64,000 bases of DNA from Prescottella equi. Lineage in GTDB: Bacteria > Actinomycetota > Actinomycetes > Mycobacteriales > Mycobacteriaceae. The notes under the pieces were generated by a model. The model searched no databases. It was not told the origin of the DNA and saw only the letters and a program-made list of their open reading frames with translations. The stretch is taken from positions 124,001 to 188,000 of the forward strand of contig NZ_LWTX01000007.1 of the NCBI RefSeq assembly GCF_002094305.1. The letters are read 5' to 3'. Position 1 is the first letter of the stretch; the number at the start of each line of letters is the position of its first letter. A program made the position numbers and the translations under genes. This document shows, in pieces, positions 28,958 to 41,620 of the stretch.

Positions 28958-28976
28958 GTAGCTTAGCCTCGCCTTT
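28958..28976 (+). promoter_or_regulatory. IdeR/DtxR-like iron box upstream of the four-domain surface protein
   Basis: GTAGCTTAGCCTCGCCTTT matches the consensus TTAGGTTAGSCTAACCTAA at 13 of 19 positions by hand count. It lies about 70 bases before the ATG at 29045, where a repressor would overlap the promoter. Iron-loaded IdeR/DtxR would be expected to repress, so expression should rise in iron limitation. Confidence 0.55.
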
Positions 28977-28984
28977 GTAATCAC

Positions 28985-28994
28985 AGGCTTACCT
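28985..28994 (+). promoter_or_regulatory. Second, partial iron box
   Basis: AGGCTTACCT matches 9 of 10 bases of the AGSCTAACCT half of the IdeR/DtxR consensus; the full 19-mer is weaker (11 of 19). It sits nine bases downstream of the first box, as in tandem iron boxes that bind two repressor dimers. Confidence 0.4.
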
Positions 28995-29044
28995 CTCTCC
29001 GTGGCTTCTGCACGCAGCCGCGGCTGTGACCAGGAAGAAGAAAG

Positions 29045-31105
29045 ATGCACGCGTTACGCAGGGCTGCCCTCGCGACCATGGCAGTCGCGATGTCGCTGGC
29101 GTTGCCGGTCGGCATTGCCGTATCCGCCCCCTCCACCGGCGGCGGACCGGTTGCCCAAGCCGCTCCGAGCACTCCGGTCACAACCGTCTCCCCGAAGACC
29201 GGCCTGAAGGACGGCGACACGATTTCCGTCTCGGGCGCCGGATTCTCCGGCGCCGGCGCCGGGATCTACGTCGGGCTCGTCCAGGACGACGCGTTCTCGT
29301 CGACCAACGCCGGCGCGTGGATGACGATGGAATTCATCAAAGCCGCCGACATCGCCAGCGGCGCGTGGAGCACCCGCGTCACCGTCGCCGCCACCAAGGG
29401 CGCCTTCGACTGCATCGAGAACGCCTGCTCGATCTACACCGTCGCGGCCCACGGTTCGAGCGATCGCTCGCAGGACACCAAGGTCCCGGTGTCGTTCGCG
29501 GCCGTGACCCCGACGACCACACCGGCACCCACCACCTCGACACCCCCGCCGTCGACACCCCCTCCGTCGACGACGCCTCCGAGCACCACGACACCGAAGC
29601 CGACCACCACGGCGCCGAAACCGACGACGACCGTTCCGACGACCACGCCGCCGCCGACCACCGCCACGCCCCCGGTGACCGGCAGCGGACCGCGCGTCAG
29701 CGTCGGCAAGACCAGCGGACTCAACGCCGCAGGAGACAAGATCAGCGTCCGGGGCAGTGGATTCTCCACCACAGGCATGGGCATCTACGTCGGCATCGCG
29801 CAGACGAACAAGTACTCGTCGACCAACGCCGACATGTTCTACGGCACCAAGTACATCAAGCCGACCGACATGCCGGGCGGCTCCTTCTCCACCACGATCG
29901 ACGTCATCGGCGCCTTCCCGAACGGCGACTGCATCAACAACGAGTGCGCCCTCTACACGCTCGCCGCGCACGGCTCGTCGGACCGCAGCCAGGACACCAA
30001 GACCAAGATCACCTTCGTCGGAACCGCACCGCCGGTCACCGGCGGTGGCGGCGGTGGCGGCGGGACCGCAACCGGCCCCGGCGCGGCGGGCGCAGCCCCC
30101 GGCACCACGTTCACGGCGAACAGTGGCCTGTCGGTGTCGCTCTCCAAGTCGAGCGACATCAACCCGGCCGGCGAGACGGTCACGGTGTCCGGGTCCGGCT
30201 TCTCCGGCGCGGCCCCCGGCCTCTACGTCGGCCTCGTCCAGGACAACGTCTTCTCGGCGGCCGACGCGTCGGTGTGGATGACCTCGGCTTTCGTCAAACC
30301 CGAGCAGATCTCGGGTGGCAACTGGTCGCTGTCGGTGGACATGGTGGCGACGCGGGGCGCGTTCGACTGCATCAAGAATGCGTGCTCGATCTACACCGTG
30401 ATGGCGCACGGCTCCTCCGACCGGAGCCAGGACACCAAGACGCCGGTGAGCTTCGTCGGCGGCGTCGCCCCGGGCACCGTGACCGCGCCTCCGGCGCTGA
30501 ATGCCGCAGGCGCTCCGGGCGCCGCGAAGACCGCGGCCGTGACACTGTCGAAGGCCAAGGGCCTGAAGGTCGAGGGCGACGAGATCACCATCTCGGGCAC
30601 CGGGTTCTCGGGTCAACAGCCCGGGATCTACGTCGGCCTGATTCAGGAGAGCAAGTTCTCGACGACCGACGCGGGCGCCTGGATGACGACCGCCTTCATC
30701 ACGCCCAGCCGGATCAAGGACGGCGCGTGGTCGACCAGCATGAAGGTCCAGGCCGTCAAGGGCGACTCGGACTGCACGAAGAACGCCTGCTCGATCTACA
30801 CGATCGCCGCGCACGGCTCGAGCGACCGCAGCCAGGACACCCAGACGCCGGTCAGCTTCGGCGACGACCCCGACGCCCCCAACGCAGACAAGGCCGCAGC
30901 CGCGGCCCTGACCGCGGACGGCGGACCCACCGACGGCGGCACCTCCGCCGCGGCGAACGAGTCGAACACGTCGGACTCCGCGATCCGCAATCTGGCGGAC
31001 GCGATCTCCGACGGCACCGCCTGGATCATCCCGCTGCTCGTCGGCGCCGTCATCGGAGCCGGATTCGCGGTCGCGACCACTGTCGCGCTGCGCCGCCGGG
31101 CGTAG
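29045..31105 (+). CDS. Surface protein with four tandem neocarzinostatin-like domains
   Basis: This 686-residue protein has a signal peptide (residues 1 to about 28), four homologous domains of roughly 108 residues (46-151, 217-326, 363-471, 498-605), a Pro/Thr-rich linker (152-215), a Gly linker (333-341) and one C-terminal transmembrane helix (658-681) followed by RRRA. Each domain has a D/E-C-x4-C pair (Cys123/128, 296/301, 442/447, 577/582) and a block AHGSSDRSQDT (His136, 309, 455, 590). The GLxxGDxIxVSGxGFSG start and the Cys pair resemble the neocarzinostatin beta-sandwich. Iron boxes upstream suggest a function in iron or heme acquisition; this is inference. It is neither LPXTG-anchored nor an HtaA domain protein. 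Confidence 0.8.
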   Translation: MHALRRAALATMAVAMSLALPVGIAVSAPSTGGGPVAQAAPSTPVTTVSPKTGLKDGDTISVSGAGFSGAGAGIYVGLVQDDAFSSTNAGAWMTMEFIKAADIASGAWSTRVTVAATKGAFDCIENACSIYTVAAHGSSDRSQDTKVPVSFAAVTPTTTPAPTTSTPPPSTPPPSTTPPSTTTPKPTTTAPKPTTTVPTTTPPPTTATPPVTGSGPRVSVGKTSGLNAAGDKISVRGSGFSTTGMGIYVGIAQTNKYSSTNADMFYGTKYIKPTDMPGGSFSTTIDVIGAFPNGDCINNECALYTLAAHGSSDRSQDTKTKITFVGTAPPVTGGGGGGGGTATGPGAAGAAPGTTFTANSGLSVSLSKSSDINPAGETVTVSGSGFSGAAPGLYVGLVQDNVFSAADASVWMTSAFVKPEQISGGNWSLSVDMVATRGAFDCIKNACSIYTVMAHGSSDRSQDTKTPVSFVGGVAPGTVTAPPALNAAGAPGAAKTAAVTLSKAKGLKVEGDEITISGTGFSGQQPGIYVGLIQESKFSTTDAGAWMTTAFITPSRIKDGAWSTSMKVQAVKGDSDCTKNACSIYTIAAHGSSDRSQDTQTPVSFGDDPDAPNADKAAAAALTADGGPTDGGTSAAANESNTSDSAIRNLADAISDGTAWIIPLLVGAVIGAGFAVATTVALRRRA
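29180..30859 (+). repeat. Four in-frame domain repeats
   Basis: Units lie at 29180-29497, 29693-30022, 30131-30457 and 30536-30859, about 320 bases each. Shared blocks are GIYVGLVQ, AWMT, DCxxNACSIYT and AHGSSDRSQDT. Units 1, 3 and 4 are the closest; unit 2 is the most divergent (FYGTKY replaces AWMT). DNA identity is moderate, so the duplications are not recent. Confidence 0.85.
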
Positions 31106-31113
31106 CATCGCCG

Positions 31114-31153
31114 CCTCGGGTGGGGCATCCGTGAACGGATGCCCCACCCGAGG
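31114..31153 (+). terminator. Strong terminator after the four-domain surface gene
   Basis: A perfect 18-bp stem (31114-31131 with 31136-31153) closes the loop TGAA eight bases after the stop. It separates the two paralogous surface genes, so the second needs its own promoter, in agreement with its own iron boxes. Confidence 0.85.
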
Positions 31154-31228
31154 CGTGCCCGAAACTGCTGGAACACAATCCATTTCGCGCGAAAGCGAAC
31201 AGAGCAACCTCTTTACTCCGCCCCGAGC

Positions 31229-31247
31229 AAAGGCTAGCTTTACCTAA
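31229..31247 (+). promoter_or_regulatory. IdeR/DtxR-like iron box upstream of the three-domain surface protein
   Basis: AAAGGCTAGCTTTACCTAA matches TTAGGTTAGSCTAACCTAA at 14 of 19 positions. A second partial copy (TTTCGCCTACCT, near 31249-31260) follows directly. The box is 43 bases before the ATG at 31290, a position for repression of the promoter. Confidence 0.6.
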
Positions 31248-31289
31248 GTTTCGCCTACCTCTCGGCGAACCACACCAGAAAGTAGGAAG

Positions 31290-32630
31290 ATGCGCGCGCT
31301 AACAAAGTCCGCGGTCCTGGCGGTTGCCGCCACGGTCGCCTGCACGCTGCCGATGGGCGTCGCGGCAGCGCAGACCAGCCCGTTCGGTTCGCTGGGCAGC
31401 CTCGGTTCCAGCGATCCGGGCCCCGAGACCCCGGCGCCCCAGGTGACGGTCTCGAAGTCCGCCGACATTTCCGCGGCCGGTGAAACGATCACGGTCACCG
31501 GCAGTGGGTTCTCCGGCGCCGGCGACGGCATCTACGTGGGCCTGGTGCAGGACGACAAGTTCTCGGTCACCGACGCGGCCGCGTGGATGACCACCAAGTG
31601 GCTCAGGTCGACCGACATCGTCGGCGGTTCCTGGAGCGCCGCGATCGACGTCGAAGCCGTCAAAGCCGGCTCCGACTGCCTGGTGAACGCCTGCTCGATC
31701 TACACGATCGCCGCGCACGGTTCCAGCGACCGCAGCCAGGACACCCGGACCCCGATCACGTTCGCGCAGCCGATCGTTCCGGCCGGTCCGGCGGTGACGG
31801 TCTCGAAGTCCACCGGCCTGACGAACGACGAAGAGCTCACGGTCACCGGCACCGGCTTCGGCCGCGGCGGCCAGGGCATCTACGTCGCTCTCGCACAGGT
31901 CGACAGGTACTCCAACACCGACAGTGCCGTCTTCCACTCCACCAAGTGGATCAAGCCCGCCCAGATCGTCGACGGCGGGTTCAACACCACCCTGAAGGCC
32001 ACCGCGATCAAGGGTGACGCGAACTGCTACGAGAACGCCTGCGCGATCTTCACGCTCGCCGACCACAACACGCTCACCGACCGCAGCCAGGACACGCAGA
32101 CACCGGTCACGTTCGCTCCGCCGGTCGTCGTGCCGACACCTACGGTCACCGCGAACAAGACCACGAATCTGGTCGCCGGTGACACCATCACCGTCTCGGG
32201 CACCGGGTTCCAGGGTGCCGCCGCCGGCACCGGCATCTACTACGGCATCGTCCAGGACGACCAGTTCTCGACCACGAACTCCGCCGCATGGATCACCACG
32301 GCATTCGTCACCCCGGCGCAGATCGTGGACGGCTCCTGGACCGGCAGCATCTCCGCGACCGCGCTGAAGGGCAATTCCAACTGCTACGTGAACGCGTGCT
32401 CGATCCGCACCGTGATGGCCCACGGCTCCACGGACCGGACCCAGGACACCCGGACGCCGATCACCTTCGCCCCGCTGCCACCCGCGAACGCGGTCGTCGA
32501 TGCTCCGGAGATCGAGAACGCCGCCAGCGTCCACTCGTCCTCCGACAGCGGCCTGCCGATCGCTCCGCTCGCCATCGGTGGCGCCATCGCCGCCGGTCTG
32601 GCGGTGACGGCACTGCGTCGTCGCGTCTGA
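31290..32630 (+). CDS. Surface protein with three tandem neocarzinostatin-like domains
   Basis: This 446-residue paralogue of the preceding gene has a signal peptide ending near VAAAQ, three domains (51-158, 168-275, 286-393), a short linker and a C-terminal transmembrane helix (422-442) ending ALRRRV. Cys pairs are 130/135, 246/251 and 365/370; the His block is AHGSSDRSQDT in unit 1, ADHNTLTDRSQDT in unit 2 and AHGSTDRTQDT in unit 3. ATG 31290 follows AGGAAG. It has its own iron boxes and terminator. A surface ligand-binding role, perhaps heme or another hydrophobic cofactor, is inferred from the fold resemblance and the iron boxes only. Confidence 0.8.
   Translation: MRALTKSAVLAVAATVACTLPMGVAAAQTSPFGSLGSLGSSDPGPETPAPQVTVSKSADISAAGETITVTGSGFSGAGDGIYVGLVQDDKFSVTDAAAWMTTKWLRSTDIVGGSWSAAIDVEAVKAGSDCLVNACSIYTIAAHGSSDRSQDTRTPITFAQPIVPAGPAVTVSKSTGLTNDEELTVTGTGFGRGGQGIYVALAQVDRYSNTDSAVFHSTKWIKPAQIVDGGFNTTLKATAIKGDANCYENACAIFTLADHNTLTDRSQDTQTPVTFAPPVVVPTPTVTANKTTNLVAGDTITVSGTGFQGAAAGTGIYYGIVQDDQFSTTNSAAWITTAFVTPAQIVDGSWTGSISATALKGNSNCYVNACSIRTVMAHGSTDRTQDTRTPITFAPLPPANAVVDAPEIENAASVHSSSDSGLPIAPLAIGGAIAAGLAVTALRRRV
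31440..32468 (+). repeat. Three in-frame domain repeats
   Basis: Units lie at 31440-31763, 31791-32114 and 32145-32468. They are homologous to the repeats of the upstream gene. Unit 1 is nearest to units 1 and 4 of that gene, which points to gene duplication followed by domain loss or gain. Confidence 0.85.
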
Positions 32631-39552: not shown

Positions 39553-41454
39553 TCAGGCGGCAGCGCGGACGACGCCCGCGACCTGCTGCGCGGACAGTTC
39601 CGTGAGGCGGACGTAGCCGCCCCGCAGGTCGCGCGCGAGGTCGGCCGCCAAGCCGAGGCGGACCATGCCGGTCTCGCAGTCGACGACGATCGATGCGGCG
39701 TTGGTGTCGGCCAGCATTCCGGCGGCCCGCCGGGCCCGCGCGACGGCGTCCTTCGCCCCGGTCGCGCGGCCGTCCGTGAGGGCCACGACCAGCGCGCGGC
39801 GACGCGGATCGCGGATCTGCTCGCGCAGGACGACCTGACGCGCCTTCAGGAAACCCGCCGCGAGCGGCGTGCGACCGCCGGTTCTCATCGCGCGCAGGCG
39901 TCGGACGGCGACGTCCACCGACGACGTCGGCGGCAGCACCAGTTCGGCATCCGTGCCGCGGACGGTGATCACCGCGACCTTGTCCCGACGCTGATAGGCG
40001 TCGCGCAGCAGCGACACGACGGCGCCGGTGACGGCGGACAGTCGATCCCGGGCCGCCATGGAACCGGACGCGTCGACCACGAACAGCACCAGGTTGCCCT
40101 CGCGGCCTTCCCGGACGGCGCCGCGAATATCGCTGGGGGCCAGCCGCATCGCGCCAGCGGTGCGCCCTCGCTCGGTCTGGTGTTCGGCGGCGGCGAACAG
40201 GGTGCCCACGAGGTGCACGCCCGTTCCCGGTTCGGTGGTCGCCCGCACGGCGCGGCCACGGGTCGAACGCGAGCGGGACCGCCGGCCCGGAGCCCCGTCG
40301 CCCACCCCCGGAATCTCGAGCAGTCGTGCCCGGAACTGTGGGCCGGGCGCGCCGGCCTTGCGTTCCGACCCTGCGCCGCATCCGGATTCCGGCGATTCCT
40401 GTTCGCTCGCTTGGGATTTCGAGTCATGCGTGGACGCTTCCGGCTCCGACGGCGATGCGCCGCCACCAGGCCCGTCGGGATCGGGTTCGGACTCCTCCTG
40501 CGCACGCGCGTCGGCGTCGGCCTGCTCCATCGCGTCGTCGAGCTGCTGCGGGTCCAGACCCGGCTCGTCGAACGGGTCGCGCCGACGGCGGTGCGGCAGA
40601 GTCAGTTCGGCGGCGATCCGCACGTCCTCCTCGGTGACGGCGTCCGCCCCACGCCACGCGGCGTGCGCGGTCGCGGTGCGCGCGAGCACCAGGTCGGCGC
40701 GCATGCCCTCGACGTCGAACGACGCACACACCGACGCGATGCGGCGCAGTTCGGCGTCGGACAGTTGGACAGCGTCGACCACGGCACGGGCGTCGGCGAT
40801 CCGCCGGGCCAGGTCGGCGTCCTGCTCGGCGTACCCGGCGGCGAAGCCGTCGGGGTCACGCTCGTAGTCGAGACGGCGGCGGACCACCTGCATGCGCACG
40901 TCGACATCGCGCGACGCGGCGACGTCGACCGCGAGGCCGAACCGGTCCAGCAGCTGCGGGCGCAGCTCCCCCTCCTCGGGATTCATGGTCCCGACCAGGA
41001 CGAACTCGGCCGGGTGCGAGTGTGAGACGCCGTCGCGCTCGACGTGGACACGACCCATGGCCGCGGCGTCGAGCAGCACGTCCACCAGGTGATCGTGGAG
41101 AAGGTTGACCTCGTCGACGTAGAGCACGCCCTGATGGGCGTCGGCGAGCAACCCGGGCTGGAACGCACGTTCGCCGTCCCGGAGTACCTTCTCGAGGTCG
41201 ATCGAGCCGACGACACGGTCCTCGGTCGCGCCGACCGGCAGTTCCACGAGCCGGGCCCGGCGTCCCTCGCCCACCTCGGGCAGCAACGCGGTCAGTGCAC
41301 GTACGACGGTGGATTTGGCGGTGCCCTTCTCGCCCCGCACCAGCACGCCACCGATGCCCGGGTGGACGGCGCACAGGATCAGCGCCAGCCGCAGCCGGTC
41401 CTGCCCGACGATGGCGCTGAACGGAAACCCGGCAGGTTGGTGACTGTGACGCAA
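39553..41454 (-). CDS. ChlI/ChlD-like metal chelatase AAA+/VWA protein
   Basis: This 633-residue protein has an N-terminal AAA+ domain (Walker [10 protein letters not shown] 41-49, Walker B YVDEVN around 114-115), an acidic/Ser/Pro-rich linker (about 310-365) and a C-terminal VWA domain with MIDAS residues Asp461-x-Ser463-x-Ser465. This ChlI-ChlD fusion architecture resembles M. tuberculosis Rv2850c and probably serves cobalt insertion together with CobN encoded elsewhere. The start appears to be TTG at 41454, about nine bases after an AAGGG-type site. It is the first gene behind the cobalamin riboswitch. Confidence 0.9.
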
Positions 41455-41511
41455 CGATCGAATCCCTTCACTTCCCGGTTTCCTCGCCGAGAGCTTGGCC
41501 TTGCGAAACGT

Positions 41512-41620
41512 TGCGGCATTCTGGCTTCGGGTGCACCTCGTGCGCCCTCACAGTGGCGGGACCGCGCCTGATTCTCACAGGACTTCCCCGCAGACGTTTC
41601 TCTGCTGCTGCACCCTACCG
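41512..41620 (-). promoter_or_regulatory. Cobalamin (B12) riboswitch
   Basis: On the minus strand the leader of the chelatase-cobO-cobB operon contains the hallmark core: GGGAAG, then GAGAATCAGGCGCGG, then the B12 box CCCGCCACTGTGA, and after a variable arm the closing GCCAGAATGCC. The last 57 bases before the TTG start would form the expression platform. Cobalamin binding should switch the operon off. It is the only riboswitch core I can identify with confidence in the window. Confidence 0.92.

Follow-up and report, generated by a model that had tools for sequence, protein, structure and literature searches.

A pair of adjacent genes in Prescottella equi raises the question of why a domain otherwise annotated only as an antibiotic apoprotein should be arrayed in tandem in predicted surface proteins, behind putative iron boxes. 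The pair lies in the 64,000-nucleotide stretch analysed here (positions 124,001 to 188,000 of contig NZ_LWTX01000007.1, forward strand, assembly GCF_002094305.1), which we call the window (Table 1). Gene 1 and gene 2 encode four and three neocarzinostatin-like domains, respectively. A first-pass annotation had guessed at a surface system that binds heme or another cofactor and is distinct from HtaA. The heme guess is supported by relatives of the domain, in several families of Actinomycetes, that are fused to or encoded near HtaA, heme oxygenase and HmuTUV-type genes. Because relatives of the fold often sit in actinobacterial heme-uptake loci, the proteins most likely capture heme at the surface. 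We therefore propose, with a probability of roughly 0.7, that the pair encodes iron-regulated surface receptors for heme, built from a hitherto unrecognised class of domain, which would work like HtaA or NEAT arrays. For the narrower proposal that each domain itself binds heme, the balance tips only slightly in favour.

The two proteins share one layout. Seven homologous domain copies, distributed four and three as first described, were seen in the open reading frames (ORFs) and in an alignment. They are about 110-114 residues long, with pairwise identities of 38-59% and 19 invariant columns, among which are Y33, C81, C86, H94, D98, R99, Q101 and D102. Both proteins begin with a hydrophobic, signal-like segment and end, behind the domain array, in a hydrophobic stretch with RRRA or RRRV as the last residues, which agrees with the order of signal peptide, array and C-terminal helix with an RRR tail given earlier. 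In gene 1, domains 1 and 2 are separated by a Thr/Pro-rich linker. Two motifs proved less constant than the first reading had it. The supposedly invariant AHGSSDRSQDT block reads DHNTLTDRSQDT in domain 2 and AHGSTDRTQDT in domain 3 of gene 2, its fixed residues being H, D, R, Q, D and T, and GIYVG also occurs as GLYVG, GIYVA and GIYYG, with its G and Y fixed. The closest named relatives of the pair are found in Prescottella/Rhodococcus, including R. hoagii.

The resemblance to neocarzinostatin was borne out. The neocarzinostatin family profile (PF00960, gathering score 25 bits) gave 26.8 bits with protein 1, above that score, and 24.7 bits with protein 2, just short of it. A profile search against the PDB aligned C81 and C86 with VDCTTAAC of neocarzinostatin, in line with the earlier comparison of the DCxxxxC pair. 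Domain 4 of gene 1 was modelled and has the seven-stranded immunoglobulin-like (Ig-like) fold of the enediyne chromoproteins; the top ten rows of a VIA-align comparison were chromoproteins or their mutants. The IPT/TIG profile (PF01833) passes for both, with 26.7 bits for protein 1 and 21.9 bits for protein 2 (cut-off 20.9). Chromoproteins were absent from the Foldseek top 50 for the model, which held many unrelated Ig-like folds instead, and the fold assignment therefore rests on VIA-align and sequence. The second Cys pair of the family (C-4-C; C81 and C86) is present in 7/7 window copies and in 97/97 copies of related loci. These are the only Cys residues of the window copies, which have no first pair. 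In the neocarzinostatin family the first Cys pair sits in the chromophore cleft; close to that place, behind the Tyr strand, the one-domain heme-operon relatives carry an additional Cys pair. The predicted distinctness from HtaA also held, as PF04213 (a profile of 164 positions) had no match in either protein at E values up to 10. NEAT was likewise absent among the Pfam matches at E values up to 10, a range in which the HMMER filters drop most weak matches. HtaA CR structures were not among the 50 VIA-align rows listed, which is uninformative either way. A weak PF00960 match elsewhere in the genome (L004) lies in what by eye appears to be a site-2-protease-type protein and was dropped as chance.

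Relatives of the domain are genetically linked to heme-uptake genes. With a profile built from the seven window copies only (alignment A2), 14 of 61 relatives proved to have the domain, and a wider profile found it in 41 of 397 genomes of the order and 87 of 394 genomes of the class. An enlarged alignment (A3) combined the seven window copies with 57 others, taken from 99 at an identity cut of 80%. As A3 includes one HtaA-fused row, A2 was run again on the relatives' loci, and heme-linked relatives were still found. Removal of four class genomes already in the order set and five without listed coordinates (G603, G627, G651, G663 and G718) left 78, giving 119 domain-bearing genomes in both sets; genomes were counted singly, and related genomes are not independent. 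Distances were taken between start places entered by hand among the matches listed, and the class-set counts of nearness may be low. HtaA was present in 21 genomes of the order set, lying at most 10 kb from the domain in 18 of them, and in 44 genomes of the class set, where this holds for at least 40 (at least 58 of 65 for both sets). Rough uniform placement predicts 0.075 and 1.66, respectively, with cluster counts entered by hand for the order set and fixed at 3 x 3 for the class set. Heme oxygenase was present in 29 order and 51 class genomes, with the domain within 10 kb in 19 and at least 30 of these (at least 49 of 80 together). Among the 61 relatives, heme oxygenase was found in 14/14 with the domain, 11 of which belong to one genus, versus 14/47 without it.

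Individual loci illustrate this linkage. In G050, one of these 14 relatives and a genome outside the family, one ORF (locus L044) contains both the domain and an HtaA domain (Pfam, 144.7 bits), and the latter matches the solved HtaA-type hemin-binding chains 8smu, 9o0k and 6js9 (best E value 6e-12). The fusion gene faces genes for Peripla_BP_2, FecCD, ATP-binding cassette (ABC) ATPase, heme oxygenase and DUF2470 proteins, with iron boxes of 18/19 and 17/19, scored here and below as matches out of 19 to an iron-box consensus. HtaA-domain fusions were also found at L077, L078, L079 and L093, and the order HtaA-domain-HtaA at L081 and L087 (HtaA by Pfam and the domain by profile in all fusions; at L087 as a weak half match only). 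Many class-set matches and HtaA seem to lie in a single ORF, up to about 2,600 residues long, judging from equal frame lengths and places. At L089, the gene of a one-domain surface protein comes first in a series encoding a Peripla_BP_2 protein, permease, ATPase (the last two identified by eye) and heme oxygenase, opposite an HtaA gene and with boxes of 18/19 and 17/19. At L076, a four-domain surface protein gene diverges from genes for heme oxygenase, a one-domain protein, a Peripla_BP_2 protein, permease and ATPase (the last two again by eye), with boxes of 15/19 and 17/19 between them; two of the five profile matches there are halves of one domain. HtaA was not detected in the L076 genome, the clearest of nine genomes in which HtaA went undetected and the domain is encoded no more than 10 kb from heme oxygenase (G077, G164, G353, G473, G485, G499, G619, G644 and G766; the G164 assembly is 81% complete). 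In small genomes, a one-domain gene stands beside a Peripla_BP_2/FecCD-type transporter at 5 of 7 loci (L137, L138, L139, L141 and L146; transporters identified by Pfam at L137 and L141, elsewhere by eye), L140 has the gene with no adjoining transporter, and L147 yielded no called ORF containing the domain. Neither heme oxygenase nor HtaA matched in any of the 16 genomes of family f40, the source of four of these five loci. Some of the small genomes probably belong to 'Ca. Nanopelagicales' or their kin. Heme auxotrophy has been reported for 'Ca. Nanopelagicales' (PMC12381374 and PMC10202952).

Two HtaA proteins of these loci end in a WxL-like stretch, that of L089 (8309-9568, minus strand) with 25.4 bits and that of L044 (9134-10642, plus strand) with 21.4 bits, below the cut-off of 25; L044 also has a WxL-interacting-type neighbour. 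WxL cell-wall attachment is known mainly from Firmicutes.

Two residues stand out as candidate ligands. Tyr33 is kept in 122 and His94 in 110 of 124 aligned copies. By group, Tyr33 is found in 7/7 window copies, 95/97 copies of related loci, 9/9 one-domain heme-operon copies, 4/4 copies of the L076 array and 7/7 HtaA-fused copies; the corresponding figures for His94 are 7/7, 90/97, 9/9, 4/4 and 0/7. Outside the fusions His94 is replaced seven times, by Arg in gene 2 domain 2 (L007 and L008) and by Phe or Leu where the first copy is divergent (L015, L017, L020, L019 and L021); the two Gordonia copies without His94 also lack Tyr33. The missing His in copies attached to HtaA would be in keeping with a ligand role that the HtaA domain can fulfil in its place, but such copies are few (seven, in two groups). 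Tyr33 would be the first candidate for an iron ligand and His94 a candidate second ligand or helper. HtaA-type CR domains are beta-sandwiches with an axial Tyr as hemin ligand, assisted by a His or Tyr (PMC12494546). By analogy, the neocarzinostatin-like domain may have reached an HtaA-CR-like chemistry on another fold.

Both genes are probably iron-regulated. Each is preceded by palindromic sites resembling the iron box of DtxR/IdeR regulon promoters, as first annotated. The 16/19 box before gene 2 is the only site in the window with three or fewer mismatches, and none of 100 shuffled sequences had any. The two boxes before gene 1 appear weak taken singly. Their spacing of exactly 20 bp recurs in all 13 related loci scored (L006-L018, 13 of 18 related loci, with start places picked by hand), where the first box has 13-15 and the second 13-17 matches. 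Genome-wide, the consensus with up to three mismatches gave 12 sites including the gene 2 box, versus two for a reversed-pattern control. In the window and 18 loci together, a box of at least 14/19 lies near the start of 29 of 33 called family genes (two of them the window's) versus 12 of 251 other genes; the loci are related, and these counts are not independent. The five control genes that reach 15/19 or more are divergent neighbours of family genes and share the latter's boxes. The four family genes without such a box are a broken-frame gene (L010) and three Gordonia genes (L019, L022 and L023).

The inner part of a heme-uptake pathway appears to be encoded elsewhere in the window's own genome. 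Genes for heme oxygenase, Peripla_BP_2 and FecCD proteins (the latter two an HmuTU-like pair) stand in a row behind a 14/19 box on another contig; they were identified by family match, and heme as their substrate is presumed. A whole-genome search with PF04213 at E values up to 1e-5 found no HtaA. With heme oxygenase and transporter genes, two arrays and no HtaA, the genome fits the HtaA-less class. The following model would account for these observations. On iron limitation DtxR/IdeR would leave the boxes and both genes would be expressed. The proteins would be exported and anchored by the C-terminal helix, displaying arrays of neocarzinostatin-fold domains on the cell surface. Each domain would most likely bind heme in the counterpart of neocarzinostatin's chromophore cleft and hand it to an HmuT-type binding protein and on to a FecCD-type permease, after which a cytosolic heme oxygenase would release the iron. 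The arrays would thus take the role that HtaA or NEAT domains have elsewhere, and in relatives whose second gene has no helix its product would be a secreted partner.

A different division of labour within the same pathway is conceivable, in which the domains bind no heme and serve as Ig-like spacers or as docking modules, either capturing a heme carrier such as hemoglobin or positioning HtaA-type domains. We regard this as unlikely. In the fusions, the domain does sit between or beside HtaA domains able to supply the heme site, His94 is missing from all seven fused copies, and the model is an Ig-like sandwich resembling many unrelated folds in Foldseek. Yet HtaA was detected neither in the window's genome, which has the arrays, nor in the nine genomes with the domain near heme oxygenase (one of them 81% complete), and spacers there would need another ligand-binding domain to serve. 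Tyr33, His94 and the DRSQD loop are also more conserved than a spacer seems to need.

Several findings weigh against heme capture by the arrays. In 20 of 41 order genomes and 32 of 78 class genomes (52 of 119), neither HtaA nor heme oxygenase lies within 10 kb of a listed domain match. The notion that HtaA and the domain always occur together was rejected, since they lie apart in seven of the 65 HtaA genomes (G021, G033, G169, G527, G557, G697 and G764). Some matches near HtaA are short and weak (E value about 1e-6, for example in G103). Heme oxygenase is present in each of the 14 genomes sampled from the window's genus, including three without the domain, and two genomes taken for Corynebacterium have the domain but no HtaA, one of them also without heme oxygenase. 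In the window's own genome, the array pair is not beside the heme operon (contigs C7 versus C4). In addition, two Gordonia relatives (L019 and L021), with weak boxes of 13/19 and 15/19, directly follow cbtBA-like genes under a cobalamin riboswitch. The Gordonia loci speak for another possibility, namely that the arrays bind a different metal complex (a siderophore, a cobalamin-like corrinoid or cobalt) and that the heme link of the relatives does not hold for the Rhodococcus and Gordonia branch. Cobalamin genes also lie about 3-7 kb downstream of the window pair, and 7 of the 11 other genomic iron-box sites adjoin genes that by eye look siderophore-type (iron-siderophore binding proteins, peptide synthetases, an esterase and a siderophore-interacting protein). 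We consider this slightly less likely than the spacer role. A hairpin followed by T residues divides cbtA from the array gene in both Gordonia loci (in L019 by eye), for which reason the role in cobalt or B12 suggested by that neighbourhood was down-weighted. The proS-cysG-cobB order is presumably ancestral in mycolata, and heme oxygenase accompanies the domain in all 14 relatives that have it. That the proteins are enediyne-binding or other antibiotic-binding apoproteins serving self-protection is very improbable. The fold is the same, and the enediyne chromoprotein model NF040680 (chromo_anti) matches with an E value of 2e-11, but its scores of 43.7 and 33.4 bits are far under the curated cut-off of 86, and the proteins are tandem, apparently membrane-anchored, behind iron boxes and related to proteins of heme loci.

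Surface heme receptors of this type would differ from all known systems compared. By fold, the neocarzinostatin family is closest (PF00960/IPR002186; neocarzinostatin, macromomycin, C-1027 and actinoxanthin). Unlike its members, the window proteins have tandem arrays, a C-terminal anchor, iron boxes and a near-invariant Tyr33, His94 and DRSQD loop; their copies lack the first Cys pair and stay below the NCBIfam cut-off for enediyne chromoproteins. The HtaA/ChtA hemophores of Corynebacterium (PF04213, CR domains) are iron-regulated surface proteins of mycolata described as feeding HmuTUV, and the window proteins may share these traits. The window domain is shorter than theirs (about 110 versus 164 residues) and has a neocarzinostatin-like fold, a conserved Cys pair and no PF04213 match. 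The Isd NEAT receptors of Firmicutes are generally described as iron-regulated surface arrays of small beta-sandwich domains; they belong to a different phylum, and no NEAT match was among the Pfam matches of the window proteins. CwpG of Actinoplanes missouriensis is a surface protein with a neocarzinostatin-like domain, which, unlike the window arrays, has one domain and is listed among sortase-anchored candidates in PMC13251363, a paper whose text mentions neither 'heme' nor 'HtaA'. Within the searches made, no paper seems to combine neocarzinostatin, heme and HtaA, none was found on the neocarzinostatin family with Corynebacterium, and with Rhodococcus or the domain names the CwpG passage was the sole relevant one. 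Hybrids of neocarzinostatin and porphyrins are said to have been engineered.

If heme capture by the arrays is correct, actinobacteria would have a second widespread surface domain for this purpose beside HtaA. This would explain heme capture in HtaA-less rhodococci, the R. equi group among them, and perhaps in streamlined freshwater actinobacteria, and would offer a plausible origin for enediyne apoproteins. A speculative and rather doubtful extension is that the neocarzinostatin fold was originally a heme-binding surface module of actinobacterial heme-uptake loci, with the Tyr-His pair in the same cleft, alternating with or replacing HtaA, and that this module was later exapted, in the enediyne apoproteins, to carry another flat, reactive ligand.

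Table 1. Coordinates of the array genes, their domains and putative regulatory sites (window numbering unless a locus is named).
Feature	Coordinates	Strand	Remarks
Iron box 1 before gene 1	28958..28976	.	14/19
Iron box 2 before gene 1	28978..28996	.	13/19; exactly 20 bp after box 1
Gene 1	29045..31105	+	686 amino acids; signal-like start, four neocarzinostatin-like domains, C-terminal helix, RRRA
Gene 1 domain 1	29171..29512	+	alignment of seven window copies (A2)
Gene 1 domain 2	29690..30031	+	alignment; preceded by Thr/Pro-rich linker
Gene 1 domain 3	30128..30469	+	alignment
Gene 1 domain 4	30533..30874	+	alignment; structure modelled; Y33 codon 30629-30631, H94 codon 30812-30814
Gene 1 C-terminal hydrophobic helix and Arg tail	31034..31102	+	
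Iron box before gene 2	31229..31247	.	16/19
Gene 2	31290..32630	+	446 amino acids; signal-like start, three neocarzinostatin-like domains, C-terminal helix, RRRV
Gene 2 domain 1	31437..31778	+	alignment
Gene 2 domain 2	31785..32129	+	alignment
Gene 2 domain 3	32136..32483	+	alignment
Gene 2 C-terminal hydrophobic helix and Arg tail	32559..32627	+	
Cobalamin riboswitch before cbtBA-like genes, L019	2828-3004		
Cobalamin riboswitch before cbtBA-like genes, L021	7474-7602		just under cut-off

The gene pair is adjoined by genes for prolyl-tRNA synthetase and the peroxide-stress protein YaaA, followed by siroheme and cobalamin genes. A candidate AdoCbl-II cobalamin riboswitch (window 41506-41599, minus strand; 39.2 bits, cut-off 36.5) lies upstream of an ORF beside the cobalamin genes (39553-41454, minus strand).

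The second gene of the pair varies among relatives. In 8 of the 13 loci L006-L018 (L011-L018), the gene 2 homologue has only one or two domains and ends 0-23 residues past the last one. This leaves no room for the C-terminal helix and Arg tail seen in the window protein, and the product may therefore be secreted in these loci; where gene 2 has no helix, the pair may act as an anchored receptor with a released partner. At L010 (8454-12111; Prescottella defluvii SampleD3_15) both array genes span more than one frame, indicating broken genes or sequencing errors. A third paralogue, which has four domains and an iron box (15-16/19), is present at L015 (2309-4162), L017 (12280-14100) and L020 (8675-10501), and its first copy is divergent and lacks His94. 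In some Rhodococcus, a Pnkp-Hen1 RNA-repair pair, identified by Pfam at L016 only and by cluster at L015, stands beside the array genes (L015 4191-8122 and L016 13070-17041, both on the minus strand).

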